64,000 nucleotides of DNA from Robertmurraya sp. FSL R5-0851 (lineage in GTDB: Bacteria; Bacillota; Bacilli; Bacillales; Cytobacillaceae). Each line of letters opens with the position of its first letter. The stretch's first letter is position 1. The stretch lies in assembly GCF_038002965.1 (NCBI RefSeq), contig NZ_JBBOOE010000001.1, positions 4,693,001 through 4,757,000 of the forward strand, written 5' to 3'. Below are positions 13,989 through 61,244 of this stretch, piece by piece. A model generated the notes under the pieces. The model made no database searches and was not told the origin of the DNA. It saw nothing but the letters and a program-made list of their open reading frames with translations. The position numbers and the translations under genes are program-made.

Positions 13989-15236
13989 TTATTCTCTTAT
14001 TTGTCCGGTTCCTCGAACAATGTACTTGGTAGAGGTAAGAGCAGGTAAGCCCATTGGACCTCGTGCATGAAGCTTTTGCGTACTAATCCCTATTTCTGCC
14101 CCAAAACCAAATTCAAAGCCATCGGTAAATCTTGTAGAAGCATTGTGATATAGGGCTGCTGCATCAACTCTATTAAAGAATGTCTCTACATTCTCAGCAG
14201 TTTCTGAAATGATCGCTTCTGAATGCTTTGAGCCATAGCTAGCAATATGACTGATTGCTTCATCGACATGAGATACCACTCGAAGCGCTACTGTTAGGTT
14301 TGAGAACTCTGTTTCCCAATCTTCTTCAGTAGCAGGAAGTAAATCTTTATCCATTTGTCTTGCCTTTTCATCTGCGCGTATTTCCACCTTTTTCTCTTGT
14401 AACGCTTTTATTAAATCCTCTAGATGCTGATCTGCCCATTTTTGGTGAACAAGGATCGTTTCTGCCGCATTACACACAGATGGACGCTGAGTTTTCGCAT
14501 TAATGGCAATATCAATGGCCATTTTATGATTAGCACTTTCATCAATATAAATATGACAGTTCCCCACCCCAGTTTCAAGAACGGGAACGGAAGCATTATT
14601 TACAACGGATTGAATGAGGTTTGCTCCTCCTCTAGGGATGAGCACATCTAGGTACTCTGTTAACTTAAACATTTGGGAAGCTGTTTCTCTGCTTGTATCT
14701 TCTAGTAACTGCACCGCTTCCACTGGACATTCACTCTTTTCAAGTGCACGGTGAATAACTGCTACAATCGCTTTATTTGAATGAATCGCAGATGAACTTC
14801 CTCGCAACAACACCGCATTACCTGTTTTTAGGCAAAGACTTGCTGCATCAACCGTGACATTGGGTCTTGCTTCATAGATCATTCCGACAACTCCAAGAGG
14901 AACACGGACTTTCTCAATATGAAGACCATTTGGGCGATCCCATCCCTCTAGAATCTCTCCAACAGGATCTGATAAGGTAGCTACTTGTCTTACTCCTTCT
15001 GCCATGTCTTGAATACGTTCTTCCGTTAATTGGAGACGATCGAGTAAGTGATCTCCCATCCCGCTTTGCTTTCCAGCCTCAAGATCCTTCTTATTTTCTT
15101 GTAAAATAAAAGGGGTATCCTCTACTAACTGATTGGCAATAAGCAGCAATGCATCGTTTTTCTGGTTGGTGGTACAAAGAGCTAAGCTAGTTGCTAGAGT
15201 ACTTGCGAGACGTGCCTTTTCTAATAATTCTGTCAT
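13989..15236 (-). CDS. proA: Gamma-glutamyl phosphate reductase (anabolic copy)
   Basis: This NADPH-dependent enzyme of 415 aa reduces glutamyl 5-phosphate to glutamate 5-semialdehyde in proline synthesis. It has the aldehyde-dehydrogenase fold and the family signatures [17 protein letters not shown] and [12 protein letters not shown]. Its catalytic cysteine is in [14 protein letters not shown], and the C-terminal region [19 protein letters not shown] is complete. Its ATG overlaps the proB stop (ATGA), so translation is coupled. A second proA lies at 22754-24016. This copy is under the proline T-box and so serves ordinary proline supply. Confidence 0.96.
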
Positions 15237-16357
15237 CTTTGTTTCCTCTCCTTCGTAAAAGTAACCCAGTTATCTCTGTGAATAACTTCAATCCGATTAT
15301 GCATATTTACTATATTTGCTTCTTTACTTGAAAGTCCTTTAATTTTGGAAAGTTCATCAACTGTATAATTAATTTGCCCTTTTCCAATTAACTCACCTTT
15401 TTCATTCCATACCTCTACGACATCACCGCGCGTAAAGGAACCATCAACATGTTTGACACCTGCTGGCAAAAGGCTTTTCCCTTGATGAATGACAGCATGT
15501 TCCGCACCCGAATCAATATCGATTCGCCCAGCAATTTGTGAGTGAATGCCTATCCACTGTTTCTTACTTTTTAATGAAGTCCCTAGGTTATAGCCAATAT
15601 AGGTACCATCGCCCTTTCCAGTAACGATATCTAATAGCTTATCCGTTCCTTCTCCCTTGCCGATAAATACCTTTACACCGACAGATAAAGCCGTTTTGGC
15701 TGCCTCAAGCTTCGAACGCATCCCGCCTGTACCGACCTTTGAACCAGAACCTCCCGCAACCTCTAAAACTTCCTCTGTAACTTCTGGGAGGAAATTATAC
15801 TTTTTAGCGTTCGGGTCCTTACGTGGGTTTCCGTCATACAAGCCATTTATATCCGTAAGAATAATGAGCGTGTCGGCATGAATTAAACCACTAACTAAAG
15901 CAGAAAGCATGTCATTATCGCCAAATGTGAGTTCATCTACCGCAACCGAATCGTTTTCATTAATAATCGGTATAACCCCACGTTTTAATAGCTCAGATAA
16001 TGTGGAATAGGCATTATTGTATTGTTCTTGTTGGGAAAAATCATTTCTTGTTAGAAGAAGCTGGGCTGACACGATTCCTTCTTTTTGAAACTCTTCAAAG
16101 TAGCTTTGCATGAGTAAGCCCTGACCCACAGCGGCAGCCGCTTGCTTTCCAGCAATGGTCACAGGTCTTGTCTGATAGCCTAAAACTGAAAAACCTGCAG
16201 CCACAGCTCCTGAAGAAATAAGAATCACTTCGTTTCCTTCCTTCTTCAGCTTAGACAGTGCCGCCACATGCTCGGCGATCTTATTCTTTGATAGACCACC
16301 ATGCGAATTCGTTAATGAACTACTCCCGATTTTTACAACAATGCGCTGTTTAGCCAC
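15233..16357 (-). CDS. proB: Glutamate 5-kinase (anabolic copy)
   Basis: This enzyme of about 374 aa phosphorylates glutamate, the first and normally feedback-controlled step of proline synthesis. The amino-acid-kinase domain shows [39 protein letters not shown] and [14 protein letters not shown]-terminal PUA domain (about 275-365) is present. GTG 16357 is the preferred start, since GAGGGATGGAA lies just before it; an ATG at 16363 is too close to that site. It is first in proBA, directly behind a T-box leader with a proline specifier. The paralogue is at 21610-22740. Confidence 0.95.
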
Positions 16358-16389
16358 TTCCATCCCTCATTCTCTAAATTCTTCATCTA

Positions 16390-21609: not shown

Positions 21610-22740
21610 ATGACGACCCTTGAAAACAGGAAGAAACGGGTTGTAATAAAAGTAGGAAGCAGTTCTTTAACCAGTCGACATGGAGAAATTAGTCGGCGAA
21701 AACTGGAAAAATTAGCGGATGAGATTGCTCTTTTAAAGGATGCTGGACATGAAATCGTATTTGTATCCTCCGGAGCTGTGGCGGCTGGGTATCGTAAACT
21801 AGGCTGCATTAACCGCCCCACATCTCTCCCAGAGAAACAAGCGGCAGCCTCTATTGGGCAAGGACTACTAATTGAAGCCTATTCAGAGATTTTCTTATCC
21901 CACGGGTATATCGCCTCACAGATATTAATTACACGTAGTGATTTTTCAGATGAAACCCGCTATCACAATGTTCGAAACACACTAAACGTATTATTAGAAC
22001 GAGGAATTATACCTATTGTTAATGAAAACGACACTGTCACAGTCGACAGGTTAAAGTTTGGTGATAACGATACATTATCAGCTAAAGTGGCTGGTTTAAT
22101 TGAAGCTGACCAATTGATTATTTTATCTGATATCGAAGGACTATACGATTCAGATCCCCGCAAAAATGAACAGGCCAAACTTTTAGAAAAAGTATACGAA
22201 ATCACACCTGAAATTGAACAAGGTGCAGGTGGATCCGGAAGTGTGGTTGGAACAGGAGGCATGAAGTCGAAGATTGATGCTGTGAAAATTGCTATGGCTT
22301 CAGGTATTCGTACGTTTCTTGGTAAAGCCACCATTTCAAATATACTAAATGATGCTGTTCAAGGTACCGCCAAAGGAACATATTTCGAAGTTTCTACCGA
22401 GACGGTTAATTTAGATCAAAAGAAACAATGGATTGCCTTTCACTCCGGTCCAAAGGGAGAGATTTTCATCAACGAACACGGAAAACTCTCTATTGTTGAA
22501 TGTAAACAGAGCATTCTATCCTCCCATATTGAGAAGGTGAATGGACGGTTTGAAAAAGGTTCTGTTATTCGAATCTTAGACCACCAGGGCGAAAGAGTGG
22601 GATTAGGTGTAGTGAATTATTCAACGGAAGAACTTGAACGAATAATGAATTCTATAGGTGAAGAATTGAGTAATGATGAGGTTGTTCCAATCGAACACTT
22701 TGTTTGCGAATTAGAACTATCCCTACCTGTGGTCATATAA
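21610..22740 (+). CDS. proJ: Glutamate 5-kinase, second copy
   Basis: This second glutamate 5-kinase of 376 aa carries the same signatures as the copy at 15233-16357: [59 protein letters not shown] and a C-terminal PUA-like domain. Its sequence differs clearly from ProB, so it is a paralogue rather than a recent duplication. AGGAGTG precedes ATG 21610. In B. subtilis and B. licheniformis the analogous ProJ makes large proline pools under high salinity, outside T-box control. The same role is inferred here from operon order and the lack of a T-box. Confidence 0.93.
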   Translation: MTTLENRKKRVVIKVGSSSLTSRHGEISRRKLEKLADEIALLKDAGHEIVFVSSGAVAAGYRKLGCINRPTSLPEKQAAASIGQGLLIEAYSEIFLSHGYIASQILITRSDFSDETRYHNVRNTLNVLLERGIIPIVNENDTVTVDRLKFGDNDTLSAKVAGLIEADQLIILSDIEGLYDSDPRKNEQAKLLEKVYEITPEIEQGAGGSGSVVGTGGMKSKIDAVKIAMASGIRTFLGKATISNILNDAVQGTAKGTYFEVSTETVNLDQKKQWIAFHSGPKGEIFINEHGKLSIVECKQSILSSHIEKVNGRFEKGSVIRILDHQGERVGLGVVNYSTEELERIMNSIGEELSNDEVVPIEHFVCELELSLPVVI

Positions 22741-22753
22741 AAGGAGGAGTTAT

Positions 22754-24016
22754 ATGTCAGTAACTACAGAATTTACAAGTGTCGAAGCGCAAGCCATTGC
22801 TGCTAAAAAAGCAGCAAAAGTCCTTAGCCAACTATCAACTGCAGAAAAAAATGAAGTATTACATGTTTTAGCCGATGCATTAGAAAAAAAGACAAACGTG
22901 ATTTTAGAGGCAAATCAGCTTGATTTAGATACGGGTCGAGCCAAAGGCTATGACGCCGCCTACATGGATCGCCTGGCCCTCTCTAAAGAAAGAATATCGG
23001 AATTTGCAGAAGGTCTCAGGCAAGTAGCTACACTAGAGGACCCAACGGGGAAAATTCTATCAAGTTGGACATTAGATAATGGTTTATTAGTTGAAAAGGT
23101 ATCCGTTCCATTAGGTGTTATTGGGATGATCTATGAAGCACGTCCTAATGTAACCGTTGATGCCACCGGTCTTGCCCTTAAATCAGGTAATGCTATTGTT
23201 TTAAAAGGAGGATCATCTGCTTTATCATCAAACCAAGCGATCGTTCAAGTCATGCATGAAGCACTAGATCACACATTGGTCCCAGGAGAGGCTGTTCAAT
23301 TCATCGCAAGTACAAATCGCGAAGCTACTCAGCAGCTTTTCACTATGAAGGAACATATTGATGTACTCATCCCTAGAGGTGGTGCTTCTCTTATAAATGC
23401 GGTCGTAAATCAAGCAACCATTCCTGTACTCGAAACTGGAGTTGGAAACTGCCACTTATACATTGATGTTGAAGCAGATGTTGATAAAGCATTAAACATA
23501 CTCATTAATGCGAAAACGGACCGTCCTGCTGTATGTAATGCGTTAGAGACAGCTATTATTCATAAAGACTGGCTTATCAAAAACAAGAGTCATCTCGTTG
23601 ATATTTTTAATAAACATGGTATTACTGTTCATGGCGATGAAATGGCTCAAACTTATATTCCCAATGCGGTCCCAGCAACAGAGAAAGATTGGGCAAACGA
23701 GTATTTAAGCTTAGATTTAGCCATCAAAACCGTTAATAACGTCGAAGAAGCCATTGACCATATTGAAACATACGGAACCAAGCACTCTGAAGCAATTGTA
23801 ACTGAGAACAAAGAAACAGCGAAAAAGTTTATGAGTTTAGTAGATGCTTCCGCCCTATACCACAATGCATCCACACGGTTTACAGATGGCGGAGCACTTG
23901 GATTTGGAGCAGAGATAGGAATATCCACTCAAAAATTACATGCTCGCGGACCAATGGGTTTACCTGCCTTAACAACGGTGAAATTTATAATGTCTGGTAA
24001 CGGACAAATACGATGA
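22754..24016 (+). CDS. proA: Gamma-glutamyl phosphate reductase, second copy
   Basis: This 420-aa paralogue of the enzyme at 13989-15236 has [29 protein letters not shown], the catalytic cysteine region TDRPAVCNALETAI and the ending [25 protein letters not shown] lies 6 bases before ATG 22754 and 13 bases after proJ, so it is the last gene of the second proline operon. B. licheniformis calls the equivalent gene proAA. Together with ProJ it can make glutamate semialdehyde independently of proBA. The operon ends in a strong terminator. Confidence 0.94.
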   Translation: MSVTTEFTSVEAQAIAAKKAAKVLSQLSTAEKNEVLHVLADALEKKTNVILEANQLDLDTGRAKGYDAAYMDRLALSKERISEFAEGLRQVATLEDPTGKILSSWTLDNGLLVEKVSVPLGVIGMIYEARPNVTVDATGLALKSGNAIVLKGGSSALSSNQAIVQVMHEALDHTLVPGEAVQFIASTNREATQQLFTMKEHIDVLIPRGGASLINAVVNQATIPVLETGVGNCHLYIDVEADVDKALNILINAKTDRPAVCNALETAIIHKDWLIKNKSHLVDIFNKHGITVHGDEMAQTYIPNAVPATEKDWANEYLSLDLAIKTVNNVEEAIDHIETYGTKHSEAIVTENKETAKKFMSLVDASALYHNASTRFTDGGALGFGAEIGISTQKLHARGPMGLPALTTVKFIMSGNGQIR

Positions 24017-24073: not shown

Positions 24074-24349
24074 TTACACCCATAACATAAATACAGCAAA
24101 GGCAATGACCCATACCAGCGGAACCAAATTAAAAATAACAGCAAGATTCTTTCTTTTTCGATGGAATACCCAAGAAAGAATCGAGCCAACAATGACTGCA
24201 ACTGGATATAAGGTAATAGTGATGACAAATAAAGAATTATAGAGACCTATGCCAGCATCAAAGCTCATAAAAGACATACCCCAAATAACAAACCAAGGCA
24301 GTAAAGATAGGACATAAAGAACTTGAGTAATAATCAAAAATGGCTTCAC
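24074..24349 (-). CDS. Small three-helix membrane protein of unknown function
   Basis: This protein of about 91 aa has three hydrophobic segments (about 5-25, 35-58, 68-90) and a basic loop HRKRKN between the second and third, which suggests a cytoplasmic loop. The start is probably GTG 24349, because GGAGGAG lies 7 bases upstream; the in-frame ATG at 24364 overlaps that ribosome site. I do not recognise the family. It is monocistronic between the proline operon and the ParR-like gene and ends in a shared terminator. Confidence 0.6.
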   Translation of the reverse strand: MKPFLIITQVLYVLSLLPWFVIWGMSFMSFDAGIGLYNSLFVITITLYPVAVIVGSILSWVFHRKRKNLAVIFNLVPLVWVIAFAVFMLWV

Positions 24350-24499
24350 TTGTATCTCCTCCATACAAACAATGACCTTATTAATTATGAAATCTTAATA
24401 CACAAAGTAAGTATATTACAAGATATATATAATCATTCGAGTGGCAAAAGGTTGTTAATACTTCCTGGGAAATTTTTTTAGGATAATAAATAATCCCTT

Positions 24500-24531: not shown

Positions 24532-25116
24532 CTATTTATTCATTTTTGAGAGAAAGTCACCTAAGAGACTATCAAGGTCATTTTCGTAATCTTGGTCCTC
24601 GTCCGTTGCTTCTGGTTCTTCCTGGCTGATACTTTCCCAACTAAAGGCATCCAAATCGTCTTCTGACGCCTCGGGCTCTTTTGAAACAGCTATTTCAGGA
24701 ATTGGATCATTCAAATGTTCATCAAGATCAGATACCTCTTCCTGTAAATATAAGGCATCCGATATATCAAGAGCATTACTATTCAAGGACGCTAGCAAAG
24801 CGGTGGCTCGAACAGGATCTGTTAAAAGTTGGTACATGATACTTCCAAGCAAAGCCTCTGAATGCTCATGCTTTAACCAGTTTCGTTGGGATTTGCTTAA
24901 TTTATGAGGAATGGGAATCGTGATTGTTTCCTGCTCCTTAGACGAAGACTGGCTAACTCCCTGCATGACAAACTCCGCTATTTTACTAGAAAAATTTCTT
25001 CTTTCGGTTTCCTTCAACTTTTGTAAATACTTTAATAAATGATCAGGTGTATCAGATGGAATTCGAAAGGAGATTGCTTGGCCCCTCTTCACTTCATTGG
25101 AAGCTAATTTTTTCAT
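24532..25116 (-). CDS. ParR-like DNA-binding adaptor of an actin-type partition cassette
   Basis: This 194-aa protein is encoded 8 bases after the ParM-like gene. Its N-terminus (about 12-55) reads as one beta strand (QAISFRIPS) followed by two helices (TPDHLLKYLQKLKE, SSKIAEFVMQGV), a ribbon-helix-helix pattern typical of ParR centromere-binding proteins. A helical middle (80-120) is followed by a very acidic linker and a short amphipathic C-terminus DLDSLLGDFLSKMNK. In ParR proteins such a tail contacts the actin filament. I recognise the layout rather than a specific family. The predicted DNA target is the repeat array at 26429-26607. Confidence 0.65.
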   Translation of the reverse strand: MKKLASNEVKRGQAISFRIPSDTPDHLLKYLQKLKETERRNFSSKIAEFVMQGVSQSSSKEQETITIPIPHKLSKSQRNWLKHEHSEALLGSIMYQLLTDPVRATALLASLNSNALDISDALYLQEEVSDLDEHLNDPIPEIAVSKEPEASEDDLDAFSWESISQEEPEATDEDQDYENDLDSLLGDFLSKMNK

Positions 25117-25124
25117 ATGATCAC

Positions 25125-26300
25125 CTATGAATTCTTAACGGGTTCTTGGGCTTTCTTTGGCTTCTCGACTTTCCTTACATAATCCGTAATAAGCTTATAA
25201 TAGGCATTAGCCATCATCCAAATACTCTCTTTTTCATCTTCAAAAAATTCAATATTATAGCCATCTAAATTATTATTTAGTGTCTTAATATAGTCCTTTA
25301 ATACATGTGCACCGCCACCAACAAAATAACAGATTTCCGTTTGAGAGTTCTTTTGCCAAATATTCCTTAACAAACGGTATTGTTTTTTTGCTAGCTCTAG
25401 TAAAATCCGATCTGTTATGTCATGAACACTCGTACGGCTGCCTTTCACCATAATGTGATTGCGATCATTCTTTCTAGTAATAATTTCAACAACATCACGA
25501 CGACTATCTAACTCCACCCCGTGCTTTGTTCTTATTTCCTCTCTTATGGCTTCTAGAGATTCAGAAACGCCTAGATTGAACCCTTGTGCCTTATCATCAT
25601 CAACATTACGATTTTTAATCACTGCAATATCCGTGGATAGTCCTCCGATGTCCTGAATAAGAATTCTTTTATCAATTAAATCCTTATTAATAATCTTTAG
25701 CTGGGTATCCATCACAAGATTAATATAAGCTGCAAAACCTTCTGGATATATTTTCACTTCATTAAATTTAATATTTACTTTTAACCCTTGATACTTAGGT
25801 GTGACAAGAAATTCTACTTGGTGCACAGAACCGACTAATTTCGAACGGTATCCCGCATCCTTTCCTTCCTTTACTTCACGTAGTGGAAGACCCGTACCAA
25901 GCGTGTAATTGGCATCAATCACTTGTTTGGATCTAGGAAAAATACCCGAATTCTCTTCTTTCACCGCATCCATTGCCAAGGTAGCAAAAAGCATGACCAA
26001 TGTTTGGTCTTCTTCTGATTTGCTACTTCCAGGATCTAATTCTGTTGCATTGTTGCTTTTCGTTGCAAGATGGCCTACTCGGTAAATGGCATTATTGTCT
26101 TTTAGAGCAGGAGAATGCACTTTAATGTGGATGCCATCAAAGGGATTTTTACTATCCAGTTCCTCTATTCCAATGACCGGTCGATCTTCCGTATCCCTGG
26201 CAACAATATTAGGCATATTAATTTCATATTCCATCTCCCCAAAGATCGCTTTAATCGAGTCATTTCCAACATCTACTGCTGCAATTCTAGAGTTTGACAT
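25125..26300 (-). CDS. ParM/StbA-family actin-like ATPase
   Basis: This filament-forming, actin-like protein of 391 aa belongs to the plasmid-segregation (ParM/Alp) type rather than MreB or FtsA. Phosphate-1 motif AAVDVGNDSIKAIFG (about 6-20), phosphate-2 motif QDIGGLSTDIAV (about 217-228) and adenosine motif GGGAHVLKDY (about 342-351) are all present, so ATP binding is expected. AAGGGATGAT lies before ATG 26300. It is first in a two-gene operon with a ParR-like adaptor and is preceded by a dense repeat array, the full layout of a type II partition cassette. No replication gene, integrase or plasmid backbone is nearby, so the cassette is chromosomal. Confidence 0.88.
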   Translation of the reverse strand: MSNSRIAAVDVGNDSIKAIFGEMEYEINMPNIVARDTEDRPVIGIEELDSKNPFDGIHIKVHSPALKDNNAIYRVGHLATKSNNATELDPGSSKSEEDQTLVMLFATLAMDAVKEENSGIFPRSKQVIDANYTLGTGLPLREVKEGKDAGYRSKLVGSVHQVEFLVTPKYQGLKVNIKFNEVKIYPEGFAAYINLVMDTQLKIINKDLIDKRILIQDIGGLSTDIAVIKNRNVDDDKAQGFNLGVSESLEAIREEIRTKHGVELDSRRDVVEIITRKNDRNHIMVKGSRTSVHDITDRILLELAKKQYRLLRNIWQKNSQTEICYFVGGGAHVLKDYIKTLNNNLDGYNIEFFEDEKESIWMMANAYYKLITDYVRKVEKPKKAQEPVKNS

Positions 26301-26428
26301 AATAGATCATCCCTTCTCGTTTAATAGATTTATAGTTCATAGTTGCTGATTATTTCTATGTATCTTTCTATTAAAGCGTATAGGAAAATACTAGATTATT
26401 CAATGAACCTTGCTGAAAAGAAATGAAA

Positions 26429-26607
26429 TTGTAAACCTGTAAACAGCTTGTAAACAAATGGCTTTTTGTATACGTAATTGTAAACAACCACGACAAACAC
26501 GTATACATATGATTAAACTAGGATGCATACACTTTTGTATACATGTAAACATAAAAGCATACATGTTGTTTACATTAAGTAAACATGTATACGACTTTTG
26601 TAAACAA
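26429..26607. repeat. Centromere-like array of TTGTAAACAA / TGTATACA repeats
   Basis: About 14 copies of an 8-10 base pseudo-palindrome TTGTAWACAW lie in 179 bases upstream of the ParM-like gene. TGTAAAC-type units are at 26429, 26437, 26448, 26478, 26543, 26579 and 26598, with one inverted at 26567. TGTATAC-type units are at 26466, 26501, 26535 and 26585. Looser CATAC variants are at 26525 and 26557. Spacing is about 10-21 bases. The region has no coding sense. By position and repeat density it resembles parC of type II partition systems, where ParR binds repeats and also represses the promoter. Confidence 0.75.
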
Positions 26608-26642
26608 AGAGCTTGTTTCAGGTTAACACCCAGTAACATTCA

Positions 26643-26677: not shown

Positions 26678-27115
26678 TTATGATTTGTAATAAGGAGGAA
26701 TGCGTAACCATTCCTTCTGCTCTAAGTACTGTTTTACTTGTAACCCTGCAAGTGTTTTTTTCATAATAATCTTTGAAAAAAGTAACCCAACGTCTGCTCG
26801 TATGGACTCTGTAAGGCCTCTTGCAGCGTATGCGACACCACTTGCTAAGTTATATGACATTAAGTTAGCTAACTCTTCATCATTTAATTTGGCACCCTCA
26901 GGTATATCACGAAAATCTCCTACAGGTTTTTCTGGTGTATTTTTTGGTAGTGGGACTCCTTCTTTTATTAAGAATTCTCTTAACTCGTCTCTGATGGGAA
27001 TATGTACGTTCTCCTTTGAATCCAAGATGATCCTTTTTAATTCCTCATCCTGAGCTAAATTGTACCCTAGTTCCTCGTTGCGCAATGACGTTTCCGTACC
27101 TAATAAAAAAAACAT
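26678..27115 (-). pseudogene. DUF3231-family protein, probably missing its N-terminus
   Basis: This 145-aa frame matches the DUF3231 pattern as I know it: an N-terminal helix pair LLGTETSLRNEELGYNLAQDEELK, GVPLPKNTPEKP, and a second half ending ESIRADVGLLFSKIIMK...WLRIPPYY. Family members normally begin some 15-20 residues earlier, with a helix containing HLW. Here the start ATG falls at the point where the upstream GMC oxidoreductase breaks off, and the two frames overlap by 16 bases. A deletion has probably joined the two genes. GGAG lies 8 bases before the ATG, so a shortened protein might still be made. The function of the family is unknown. Confidence 0.6.
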
Positions 27116-28457
27116 AAGTTCACTCCATTTCTATGATCAACTTCATCGTCTGTAGTGATTAGTACATTCAACGTTTTTCTGTAATTCAACATTAAATCTT
27201 TTAATTTGCTTCCAACAATTTGATGATAAGATTCCCATTGAGACTGTTCCTTTTCATAGATACTCCATCCAAATTGACTAATTCCATAGGAAAGAGAAGC
27301 TGTTAGTCCTGGGCTCATACCGACCGTTTGCAAGGAACCTAATCCTGGTATATCCAGCCTTGCACCACATGTATGTCCAATAAAAGGATGGATATCAGGC
27401 TCACCTAAGATAGACATAAGGTCTTTTTCATTAAAGATTCCCGTTACCCAGTCCATATAGTGGTTCGTTAACCCCTTACCAACCCATGGATTTTCAGGAA
27501 GATTAGAATTTAACCAAAGTCGCGGGCTCTCTATGCTACCTCCAGCAAGAACAACCACCTTTGCTCTTAATTCTTCCTCTTCTCCTGTCCATGTATCCCT
27601 AATTCGGACTCCAGTCGCCTGTAACTCTCGTGAATGACCGGTATCTGTTAAGATTTTTATGGTAAACGAATTGGGCCTAATCGTGACATTACCAGTACTC
27701 AAAGCCAATGGGATGTAACTAACGGTTGTTGATCTCTTGGCAACTTTATCTACGGAAGGGCCATGTGGACAACCATTTATACAATGTCCACAGAGGGTAC
27801 ACCCTTCCATCCACGATAATTGTTCAAGTGAAACATTTACATTATTAAGATTCTTATTTAAGGGTAAGATCGCGTTGGGCTGTGGACGATAGCCAGGCCT
27901 TGTAACATTTAGTGTGGAGTTTAGCTGCCAGCCTTCTTTTTTTGCTCCATAATAAAATAATTCTTCCTTTGCCGTTGTTGGTGCAAAGTGAACCGGTAAT
28001 GTGGCTTCTACTTTTTCATAATAAGGAATGAGTTCTCGATAGGAAAGGGGCCATACTTGGTCAATAGCTACTGAATATGCACGAGGAGAATTAGCTGTAT
28101 AGTGCTGTGTGGACCCTCCCACACCCGCACTTTGCCAAATAATTTGCTTATGTGGTGATAGGCGTACCCATGGTGCCCGATCTCTATTTGCTGGGCCCCA
28201 TCGAAATCTACCTGTAACCAAATTATTCATATTGTCTTCATACTTGTTTAGTTGTTGCCTATAAAGAGTAATATCTAAATCATTTTTTCGGAACTTTCTT
28301 TTTCCCCAGATTGAAGATTGGGACTCGGCCACTTTTGATTTCCGTACCATGGGCCCGCTTCTACAATTAATACCTTTAATCCCTTTTCCCCAAGCTCCTT
28401 CGCTATTACTGCTCCACCACCTCCTGCACCAATGACTATAACATCTGGATTAGACAT
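27100..28457 (-). pseudogene. GMC-family oxidoreductase, frameshifted and 3'-truncated
   Basis: The start (ATG 28457, ribosome site GGGGGAA) encodes the FAD-binding VIVIGAGGGGAVIAKEL and EAGPWYGNQKWP, but the frame closes at 28275. One more A in the A6 run at 28283-28288 (T on the plus strand) would join it to the long frame NDLDITLYRQQLNKYEDNM and onward. The middle has SAGVGGSTQHY and a cysteine cluster CTLCGHCINGC. The protein breaks off after DDEVDHRNGV, about 130 aa before the normal end, so the C-terminal catalytic His/Asn region is missing. The gene is therefore inactive whatever the status of the frameshift. Its partner subunit gene lies directly upstream. Confidence 0.85.
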
Positions 28458-60386: not shown

Positions 60387-61244
60387 TTAGGATTCTTGAT
60401 TATTATTTAATAATTCGAGAATTCTTTCTAAATCATCTTTTGAGAAAAACTCTATTTCAATTTTCCCTTTATTTTTAGACTCTTTAATATTGACAGTTGT
60501 GCCAAATCTCTCACGCAAAAAGCCTTCACGTTCTTTAATAAAAACATTTTTCTCTGGCCTTGGCTTCTTTGTTTCACGTGGAACATTATCATTCAACTGT
60601 TGAATAAGTTGTTCTAACTGGCGAACATTTAAGCCTTCTTTCATTACTTTCTCAGCAATTAGAGGTAACTTTTCCTTCTTTCTAAGGCCAAGTAAGGCAC
60701 GACCATGCCCCATTGAAATCTTTCCATCTGAAATCAGCTGTTGGATTTTGGTTGGCAGTGTTAACAAACGGACGAAATTTGCAATATGTGGTCGACTCTT
60801 CCCTAGTCTTTTAGCCAACTGCTCCTGTGTTAAAGAGAGCTTTTCCATTAGTAACTGATAGGCTGCCGCTTCTTCTATCGGGGTCAAATCTTCTCTTTGT
60901 AAGTTCTCTAGTACAGCAAGTTCCATCATTTGTTGTTCAGTTAATTCTCGAATGACAACAGGAACTTTTTCAAGCCCCGCTTCTCTTGCTGCTCGAAAGC
61001 GTCTTTCACCAACAACAATATCATAGCCCTTTATACTTTTTCTAACGATTATAGGCTGTAAAATACCATGCTCAATAATTGACTGCTTTAGCTCTTCAAT
61101 TGCCTCTTGGGTAAAGATCTTTCTCGGCTGATAAGGATTAGGACGTATTTCTTTCAAACTAACATCCGTAATCGATTCCTGTTTGTTTGGCTCCTCGATG
61201 TTTGCAAAGAACGCATTTAACCCTTTTCCGAGTCCTTTAGCCAT
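60387..61244 (-). CDS. spo0J: Chromosome partition protein ParB
   Basis: This 285-aa ParB binds parS and forms a CTP-dependent sliding clamp that loads SMC and regulates Soj. The N-terminal part has IRPNPYQPRKIFTQEAIEEL, the CTP-binding GERRFRAAREAGL and ENLQREDLTPIEEA. The helix-turn-helix is TQEQLAKRLGKSRPHIANFVRLL (two blocks), and a C-terminal dimerisation domain is present. It overlaps soj by 8 bases. A perfect parS lies within the gene at 60570-60585, as in B. subtilis. Confidence 0.97.
   Translation of the reverse strand: MAKGLGKGLNAFFANIEEPNKQESITDVSLKEIRPNPYQPRKIFTQEAIEELKQSIIEHGILQPIIVRKSIKGYDIVVGERRFRAAREAGLEKVPVVIRELTEQQMMELAVLENLQREDLTPIEEAAAYQLLMEKLSLTQEQLAKRLGKSRPHIANFVRLLTLPTKIQQLISDGKISMGHGRALLGLRKKEKLPLIAEKVMKEGLNVRQLEQLIQQLNDNVPRETKKPRPEKNVFIKEREGFLRERFGTTVNIKESKNKGKIEIEFFSKDDLERILELLNNNQES
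60570..60585. promoter_or_regulatory. parS site inside spo0J
   Basis: TGTTTCACGTGGAACA is the exact reverse complement of the B. subtilis parS consensus TGTTCCACGTGAAACA. It lies within spo0J, the same location as the best-known B. subtilis parS. Confidence 0.93.

Follow-up and report, generated by a model that had tools for sequence, protein, structure and literature searches.

Alp7A, Alp7R and alp7C reportedly constitute the system of the Bacillus subtilis plasmid pLS20. In plasmid pSK41, parC consists of 10-bp repeats and the C-terminus of ParR is needed, according to the accessible part of PMC4911067. Chromosome-encoded ParM proteins were reported by Ali et al. in 2025 for Desulfitobacterium, Clostridium botulinum and others (PMC12270681); the accessible part of that paper names Dh-cParM1, Cb-cParM and Bt-cParM, thus including a Bacillus example (Bt-cParM1/2 of B. 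tropicus, WP_001968526 and WP_000025611), and describes for the Cb cParMR a chromosomal parC, bound by ParR, that contains three palindromic repeats, while a legend states that no conserved cparC was identified in Clostridium. Here we consider a 64,000-nucleotide stretch of Robertmurraya sp. FSL R5-0851 (C1:4693001-4757000, hereafter the window), in which a parM-like gene, a parR-like gene and a repeat array form a single unit bounded by predicted terminators, with spo0J 35 kb away. We believe that this unit is a chromosomally domesticated ParMRC operon of the Alp7A kind serving as an auxiliary device for segregation or anchoring of the origin region; the probability of this reading is roughly 0.57.

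The window belongs to contig C1 (4.76 Mb) of a 5.32-Mb genome in two contigs, and C1, the replicon carrying the cassette, is taken as the chromosome. Along the minus strand, the order is a terminator-like hairpin (26668-26646), the array (26429..26607), a non-coding block (26370..26428), parM (26300-25125), 8 bases, parR (25116-24532) and a second terminator-like hairpin (24522-24493). The first-pass annotation, made from the letters of the window, had proposed a chromosomal ParM-ParR-parC-like cassette near ParABS with its parts in the order array, parM, parR; both open reading frames lie where it placed them, the array is real, and a cassette of this kind near ParABS is well supported. Repeats upstream of parM, followed by parR, are also the arrangement of the pSK41 and R1 ParMRC systems, which differ from the present one in being plasmid-borne and in showing remote sequence similarity only.

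The parM-like gene (25125..26300, minus strand) encodes a 391-aa actin-like ATPase, identified through Pfam, PHROG 691 and profile matches to solved ParM chains. In Pfam, four models of actin-like proteins score the protein above their curated cut-offs, namely Alp7A_like_C (PF22128; E 9.8e-40, 136 bits against a cut-off of 22), MreB-like_C, ALP_N and the ParM C-terminal model (accessions PF17989, PF21522 and PF21523, listed by number), and PHROG 691, “partition protein”, matches it at 1e-41; no NCBIfam model was passed, the best giving 24 bits against a cut-off of 417. A profile built from nine relatives matches the solved ParM chains 4xhp, 4xe8 and 6ixw, and remotely Dh-cParM1 (8x1i, E 0.0006); 1mwk, which we take to be the R1 ParM, is likewise a remote sequence match (E 0.0009). 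Some orthologues are labelled “Alp7A family actin-like protein” in databases, and the window genome holds one ParM match at E <= 0.001. The actin-like ATPase that a type II (ParMRC) cassette requires is thus supplied by this protein, and so is the Alp7A_like_C domain that defines the Alp7A family; judged by sequence, it is a ParM of that family. Its likeness to the pLS20 Alp7A rests on the family model, and the system in the window differs from that of pLS20 in being chromosomal.

The adjoining parR-like gene (24532..25116, minus strand; 194 aa) is identified by its adjacency to parM, alignment, C-terminal motif and plasmid similarity. In the alignment, the protein is composed of a conserved N-terminal part of about 110 aa, a variable acidic linker and a conserved C-terminal peptide, DLDSLLGDFLSKMNK, which makes up its last 15 residues; this peptide and the N-terminal stretch KRGQAISFR.PSDTPDH... 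are strongly conserved. The C-terminal motif was found in 80/80 named loci, these being the best 80 of 437 relatives obtained with tblastn on named genome contigs, a set biased to high identity; the N-terminal pattern matches 63 of them, and the remaining 17 have L for I. Such a layout is as expected of a ParR, considering that the ParR proteins of pSK41 and R1 bind DNA through the N-terminus and require the C-terminus for ParM (PMC4911067, accessible part), and the conserved C-terminal peptide would fit the capture of ParM.

The fold of the 194-aa protein is another matter. The protein passes no curated family in Pfam or NCBIfam; its best Pfam matches, DUF5329 (0.007) and prok_STING (0.08), are both under the cut-off. 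When 79 family members were compared with Pfam, two matched Arc (best 0.012) and one RelB (0.067), while 14 matched prok_STING and nine DUF5329 equally weakly. Two AlphaFold monomer models (mean pLDDT 51.0 and 64.5) contain two suitably placed helices, at 25-38 and 44-58 in the latter model, and no strand; two fold searches with these models gave no match, and profile and sequence searches of solved structures with the ParR-like protein found no ParR. Considering the models without a strand and the empty fold searches, a ribbon-helix-helix (RHH) fold is not shown. Of the small RHH-like protein with an acidic tail described in the first-pass annotation, the acidic part stands, as a linker, and the RHH part is unconfirmed; the structural match to the ParR fold was sought and was not obtained.

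The array contains 12 GTAAAC/GTTTAC/GTATAC cores at 26431-26605, and many of these form part of a near-palindrome of 8 bp, for example TGTAAACA or TGTATACA. The 186 bp of 26425-26610 hold all 12, whereas no other segment of this length in the window has more than 2 and none of 10,000 base shuffles gave more than 3; together with its recurrence in relatives, this makes the array the candidate for the repeat element, parC, that a type II cassette requires beside its genes. Array cores were found upstream of parM in 80/80 named loci, of which 79 were counted in the interval -350..-90. The eightieth, L052, has no core in this interval; it was considered as an exception and dismissed, because its array is displaced upstream, with 7 cores at -559..-399. 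Since the named loci are the closest ones, 22 divergent loci were added (20 fetched, plus L111 and L112), and these have 3 to 12 cores each; the 20 fetched loci total 157 cores in 6.8 kb upstream compared with 0.2 per 340 bp elsewhere. In the named loci the usual spacing between neighbouring cores is 8, 11 or 12 bp, and the mean phasing score peaks at 10.75 bp (4.76, whereas 100 randomised sets reached 1.43 at most), although the 79 loci used share ancestry and are not 79 independent tests. With phasing near 10.75 bp, the majority of the sites face the same side of the helix.

An array directly upstream of parM may also be an operator, and this leads to the first alternative: an autoregulated actin cytoskeleton with a role other than segregation, such as cell shape or positioning of the spore or the envelope. 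We consider it unlikely, given that 12 phased sites seem more than an operator needs, and that the C-terminal peptide of ParR together with the linker fits the capture of filaments by DNA-bound ParR. Its further consequences concern the location of the cassette and are discussed with it.

In the window genome, the GTAWAC triple pattern occurs in the array and in one other place, an isolated 34-bp GTATAC cluster at C1:1901453-1901486, which may be due to chance because a reversed control pattern gave 2 matches in the same genome. The second contig of this genome (G000:C2, about 0.55 Mb) gave no match to ParM, and a scan limited to the GTAWAC triple pattern, with looser arrays outside its scope, found no cluster on it; service in trans to this contig was rejected on these grounds.

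Conservation of the cassette in related chromosomes, raised by the first-pass annotation, was found. A ParM match at E <= 1e-100 is present in 207/397 genomes of the order sample, representing 55/130 genera. Among 121 genomes, the window's included, 77 have some ParM match and 70 have orthologues at 79-100% identity; the closest named relatives are Robertmurraya, with 98% ParM identity. In a 299-genome sample of the phylum, three genomes have orthologues of at least 83% identity; these three, which include the window's own, all belong to the same order, and the next best ParM matches are 28-32% identical. ParR adjoins ParM in all 80 named and all 22 divergent loci (102/102). The combination of a ParM-fold protein and an adjacent ParR-like gene on the chromosome, conserved in relatives, is shared with the cParMR systems (PMC12270681, accessible part).

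Two other kinds of ParM were met in this survey. A second, distant ParM-like family (27-32% identity, reading frames of about 400-440 aa) is found elsewhere in many of the surveyed genomes, for example in G008:C2, G032:C1, G047:C9 and G070:C1:2395629. In addition, extra ParMs with 41-44% identity accompany the chromosomal one in G032:C4, G048:C2, G010:C100 and G049:C7; they resemble the window ParM as much as plasmid ParMs do.

The ParM is strongly constrained. Its identity to the window protein exceeds that of Spo0J in 69/69 genomes (medians 85 vs 75%), and among the 80 named loci the four-fold codon third positions are 21-46% identical at 86-93% protein identity, where 26% is random. Since these sites are near saturation, the gene is old and constrained and has not spread recently; recent transfer as the cause of the high identity was rejected for most pairs for the same reason. 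The ParM tree (58 rows: 31 named loci, the window, 22 divergent loci, one mobile element and three plasmids) splits the chromosomal group from the plasmid sequences (100/100). Families are mixed within the chromosomal group, and therefore some transfer has probably occurred. The ParM of the mobile element (L125) falls inside this group on a long branch, which makes its placement unsure.

These data bear on the possibility that the cassette is what remains of an integrated plasmid, or else an addiction module of a selfish kind, and has no function for the chromosome. Plasmid homologues exist and the presence of the cassette in the order is patchy, as such an origin would suggest; we nevertheless regard it as the least probable of the explanations considered. 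Near-saturated synonymous sites at 86-93% protein identity and a ParR beside ParM in every one of the 102 loci speak against it. In and around the cassette, 0/5 scanned proteins match a replication or toxin family: neither cassette protein is above the cut-off of any toxin-antitoxin family in Pfam or NCBIfam, and the three neighbouring reading frames match no toxin family either, so that the “addiction or anti-loss device” offered in the first-pass annotation found no backing. Its other suggestion, a “domesticated plasmid module”, fits as far as it goes but understates the case of a cassette that about half of the sampled order retains and that is tied to the origin region.

The latter statement rests on distances to spo0J (60387..61244, minus strand), which we take from family knowledge and its translation to be the ParB gene of the origin block and which served as the reference; it has a match in 121/121 genomes. 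In 45 of the 70 cassette-bearing genomes, parM and spo0J share a contig. Their median distance is 62 kb, with 42/45 pairs within 135 kb, 44/45 on the same side of spo0J and 45/45 on the same strand. Draft contigs bias these distance counts towards short values; where the shared contig exceeds about 3.3 Mb (n=19), 135 kb or less separates the two genes in 16 genomes, and the side is the same in 18; a place chosen at random on a 4.5-Mb circle would be expected to fall within 135 kb in about 6% of cases.

The local neighbours of the cassette do not share this fidelity. Five genes beside parM on the spo0J side recur in 2/80 loci, both of R. korlensis (in 66 of the 80, more than 9 kb of sequence is available on either side). 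Two control genes, serA-like and proA (names from translations), were followed in 16 genomes assembled into at most three contigs. The former, which in the window lies 5.5 kb from parM, was matched in 7/16; outside the genus of the window it is near the origin in 1/5 (G034) and more than 1.5 Mb away in the other four. For proA, matched in 12/16, the best match outside the genus is within 135 kb of spo0J in 0/10, two of these ten matches being of a more distant proA type. In 13/16 of the same genomes, 135 kb or less separates the cassette from spo0J; the cassette is origin-linked while its neighbours differ.

For the cytoskeletal explanation, proximity to the origin would be a matter of gene dosage or history. 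It gains from the ParB match present in every one of the 121 genomes, and from the spore gene matched in 120/121 of them (presumably yyaC), which makes a spore-related role possible; the origin side and strand retained while the neighbours move are what it does not account for. The spore gene itself discriminates nothing, being present in 120/121 genomes with or without the cassette.

RacA is the origin anchor of sporulating B. subtilis, and a cassette replacing it as a sporulation-specific anchor would likewise act on the origin region, although through an unrelated protein. An origin-proximal centromere-like array in genomes having the spore gene is compatible with this idea, which we find highly improbable: RacA-like matches (E <= 1e-6) occur in 60/70 cassette-bearing and 30/51 cassette-free genomes, the opposite of replacement (Fisher p 0.0013, uncorrected for kinship), and the window genome has such a match itself. 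All these matches lie under the curated cut-off of the profile, as does that of B. subtilis. RacA-like matches thus co-occur with the cassette, and a RacA substitute is disfavoured.

The kinship of the cassette with plasmid systems is well supported by sequence comparison. Relatives of the ParM were found in 74 plasmid records, none at 60% identity or above and the best listed at about 40-43%, and relatives of the ParR in 22, over about half of its length. The plasmid pBM69 of B. methanolicus carries a ParM about 42% identical, and the next gene shares 43% identity with the window ParR over the N-terminal half of the latter; the ParR relative also adjoins ParM in pHD05 of Paenibacillus. These two ParMR pairs share with the window the gene order and the identity levels of 41-43% (ParM) and 32-43% (ParR, over about half); they differ in being plasmid-borne and in having a shorter ParR, another C-terminus and few or different repeats. 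Four array-type cores (GTATAC/GTAAAC) are found upstream in pHD05; the upstream repeats of pBM69 and of a B. subtilis plasmid are different by eye. Among viral sequences, two IMG/VR contigs (86 and 116 kb; L124, L125, L129) carry a ParM 79% identical to that of the window. The 116-kb contig, G417, also has a ParR-like gene near its end, with the terminus GDFFAVMNK similar to the C-terminal motif; this gene is far from parM and beside a phage-type integrase, while a replication-relaxation gene is near parM. No ParR was found on the smaller contig, which may be a fragment.

These sequences could be related to a different function, in which the chromosomal cassette would be a centromere decoy or a means of partition-mediated exclusion, directed at incoming plasmids or phage-plasmids whose partition relies on this ParMR family. 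Homologous pairs on plasmids, and G417 with its 79% identical ParM and a ParR-like gene having a similar C-terminal motif, speak for it. The plasmid ParMs, however, are at best about 42% identical, the upstream repeats of two of the three plasmids differ by eye, the viral scan for close relatives gave 2 contigs, and exclusion does not predict a fixed origin-proximal place; we hold this explanation to be quite improbable. The viral rarity is itself uncertain, because a search of the same collection that started from the ParR alignment left 0/174 candidates confirmed and missed even the known case of G417.

As to novelty, the accessible part of PMC12270681 reports neither an origin-linked location nor a conserved multi-site phased array for cParMR, and Dh-cParM1 is only a remote sequence match to the window ParM. 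An order-wide, origin-tied, centromere-bearing system seems new, with the reservation that Bt-cParM may be orthologous and that a part of the window cassette family may already be listed in the supplement of that paper. The “undescribed system” of the first-pass annotation has to be narrowed accordingly: chromosome-encoded ParMs as such were reported in 2025 (PMC12270681), and what seems new is the order-wide array system tied to the origin.

Returning to the domesticated ParMRC operon as the preferred reading, we computed its three parts, their co-conservation, the architecture of the array, the linkage to the origin and the strong constraint on ParM; upon these we presume the following course of events. 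Dimers of ParR, if it has the expected fold, would bind the helically phased array (parC), all from the same side of the DNA; the bound ParR would repress the cassette's own promoter. Its C-terminal peptides on acidic linkers could then capture and seed ParM filaments, whose ATP-driven growth would push or anchor the parC locus and in this way affect chromosome movement. Since parC is origin-proximal and copied early, the force would act on newly replicated sister origin regions; since a ParB match is present in 121/121 genomes, the cassette would be auxiliary to ParABS and SMC. The place on one side of the origin, the early replication of the array and the orientation away from the origin fit a role at sister origins.

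Several observations weigh against this reading. Binding, polymerisation and phenotype are all presumed from sequence, and the RHH fold of ParR is unconfirmed after two models and four structure searches. Three divergent loci have few cores: L132 (3), L142 (4) and L145 (4). In 25/70 cassette-bearing genomes parM and spo0J are on different contigs, and in three of the 45 genomes with a shared contig they are 217, 290 and 775 kb apart. The ParM tree mixes families, with Pullulanibacillus and Ureibacillus/Lysinibacillus among other genera. A segregation engine is already present wherever ParB is matched, that is, in every one of the 121 genomes. Finally, 190/397 genomes of the order sample have no match at E <= 1e-100; with about half of the sampled order lacking it, the cassette is dispensable across species and not generally required.

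A more general claim, which we put forward tentatively and would not yet bet on, is that a large part of the order, which is that of the Bacillus-like spore-formers, possesses a second, actin-powered engine of origin segregation beside ParABS/SMC: a long-kept parMRC, its centromere held on one side of oriC near spo0J, serving to separate, align or anchor sister origins. The retention in many related species suggests that an actin-like filament may help to move or anchor a bacterial chromosome. If this is true, a filament-driven mechanism joins ParABS and SMC in the chromosome segregation of spore-formers; if it is not, a bacterial actin that is highly conserved, more so than Spo0J, would have a task still to be recognised. 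In either case the locus is a concrete place for a test, having a complete cassette and a defined candidate centromere near oriC in many species, and cassette-free relatives as natural controls.

The remaining features of the unit are minor. The non-coding block between the array and the parM start (minus strand) is conserved when the upstream region of the window is aligned with those of 27 named loci (28 regions in all); it is probably the promoter, a suggestion drawn from its conservation and place, and no sigma-70-type site was called in it. The hairpin directly past parR (minus strand) has a 13-bp stem and a T-rich tail, and that ahead of the array (minus strand) a 10-bp stem followed by TTTTT; the latter probably ends the upstream unit. 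In the region, 4 terminator-like sites were found and 1.5 were expected. No Rfam family was found in this region.

Past the parR terminator, a small hydrophobic reading frame of 96 aa (24074-24364, minus strand) has no family above the cut-off and was found again in 2/80 loci (L031, L033); because of this rarity we do not regard it as a part of the cassette. On the other side, a GMC-type oxidoreductase gene (27100-28457, minus strand; name from translation) appears split, its N-terminal GAGGGG motif being in a 60-aa reading frame (28275-28457) that differs in frame from the 416-aa remainder. The window also contains two proBA-like pairs, 13989-16363 (minus strand) and 21610-24016 (plus strand), about 5 kb apart and in opposite orientation, with their ProA proteins about 54% identical.

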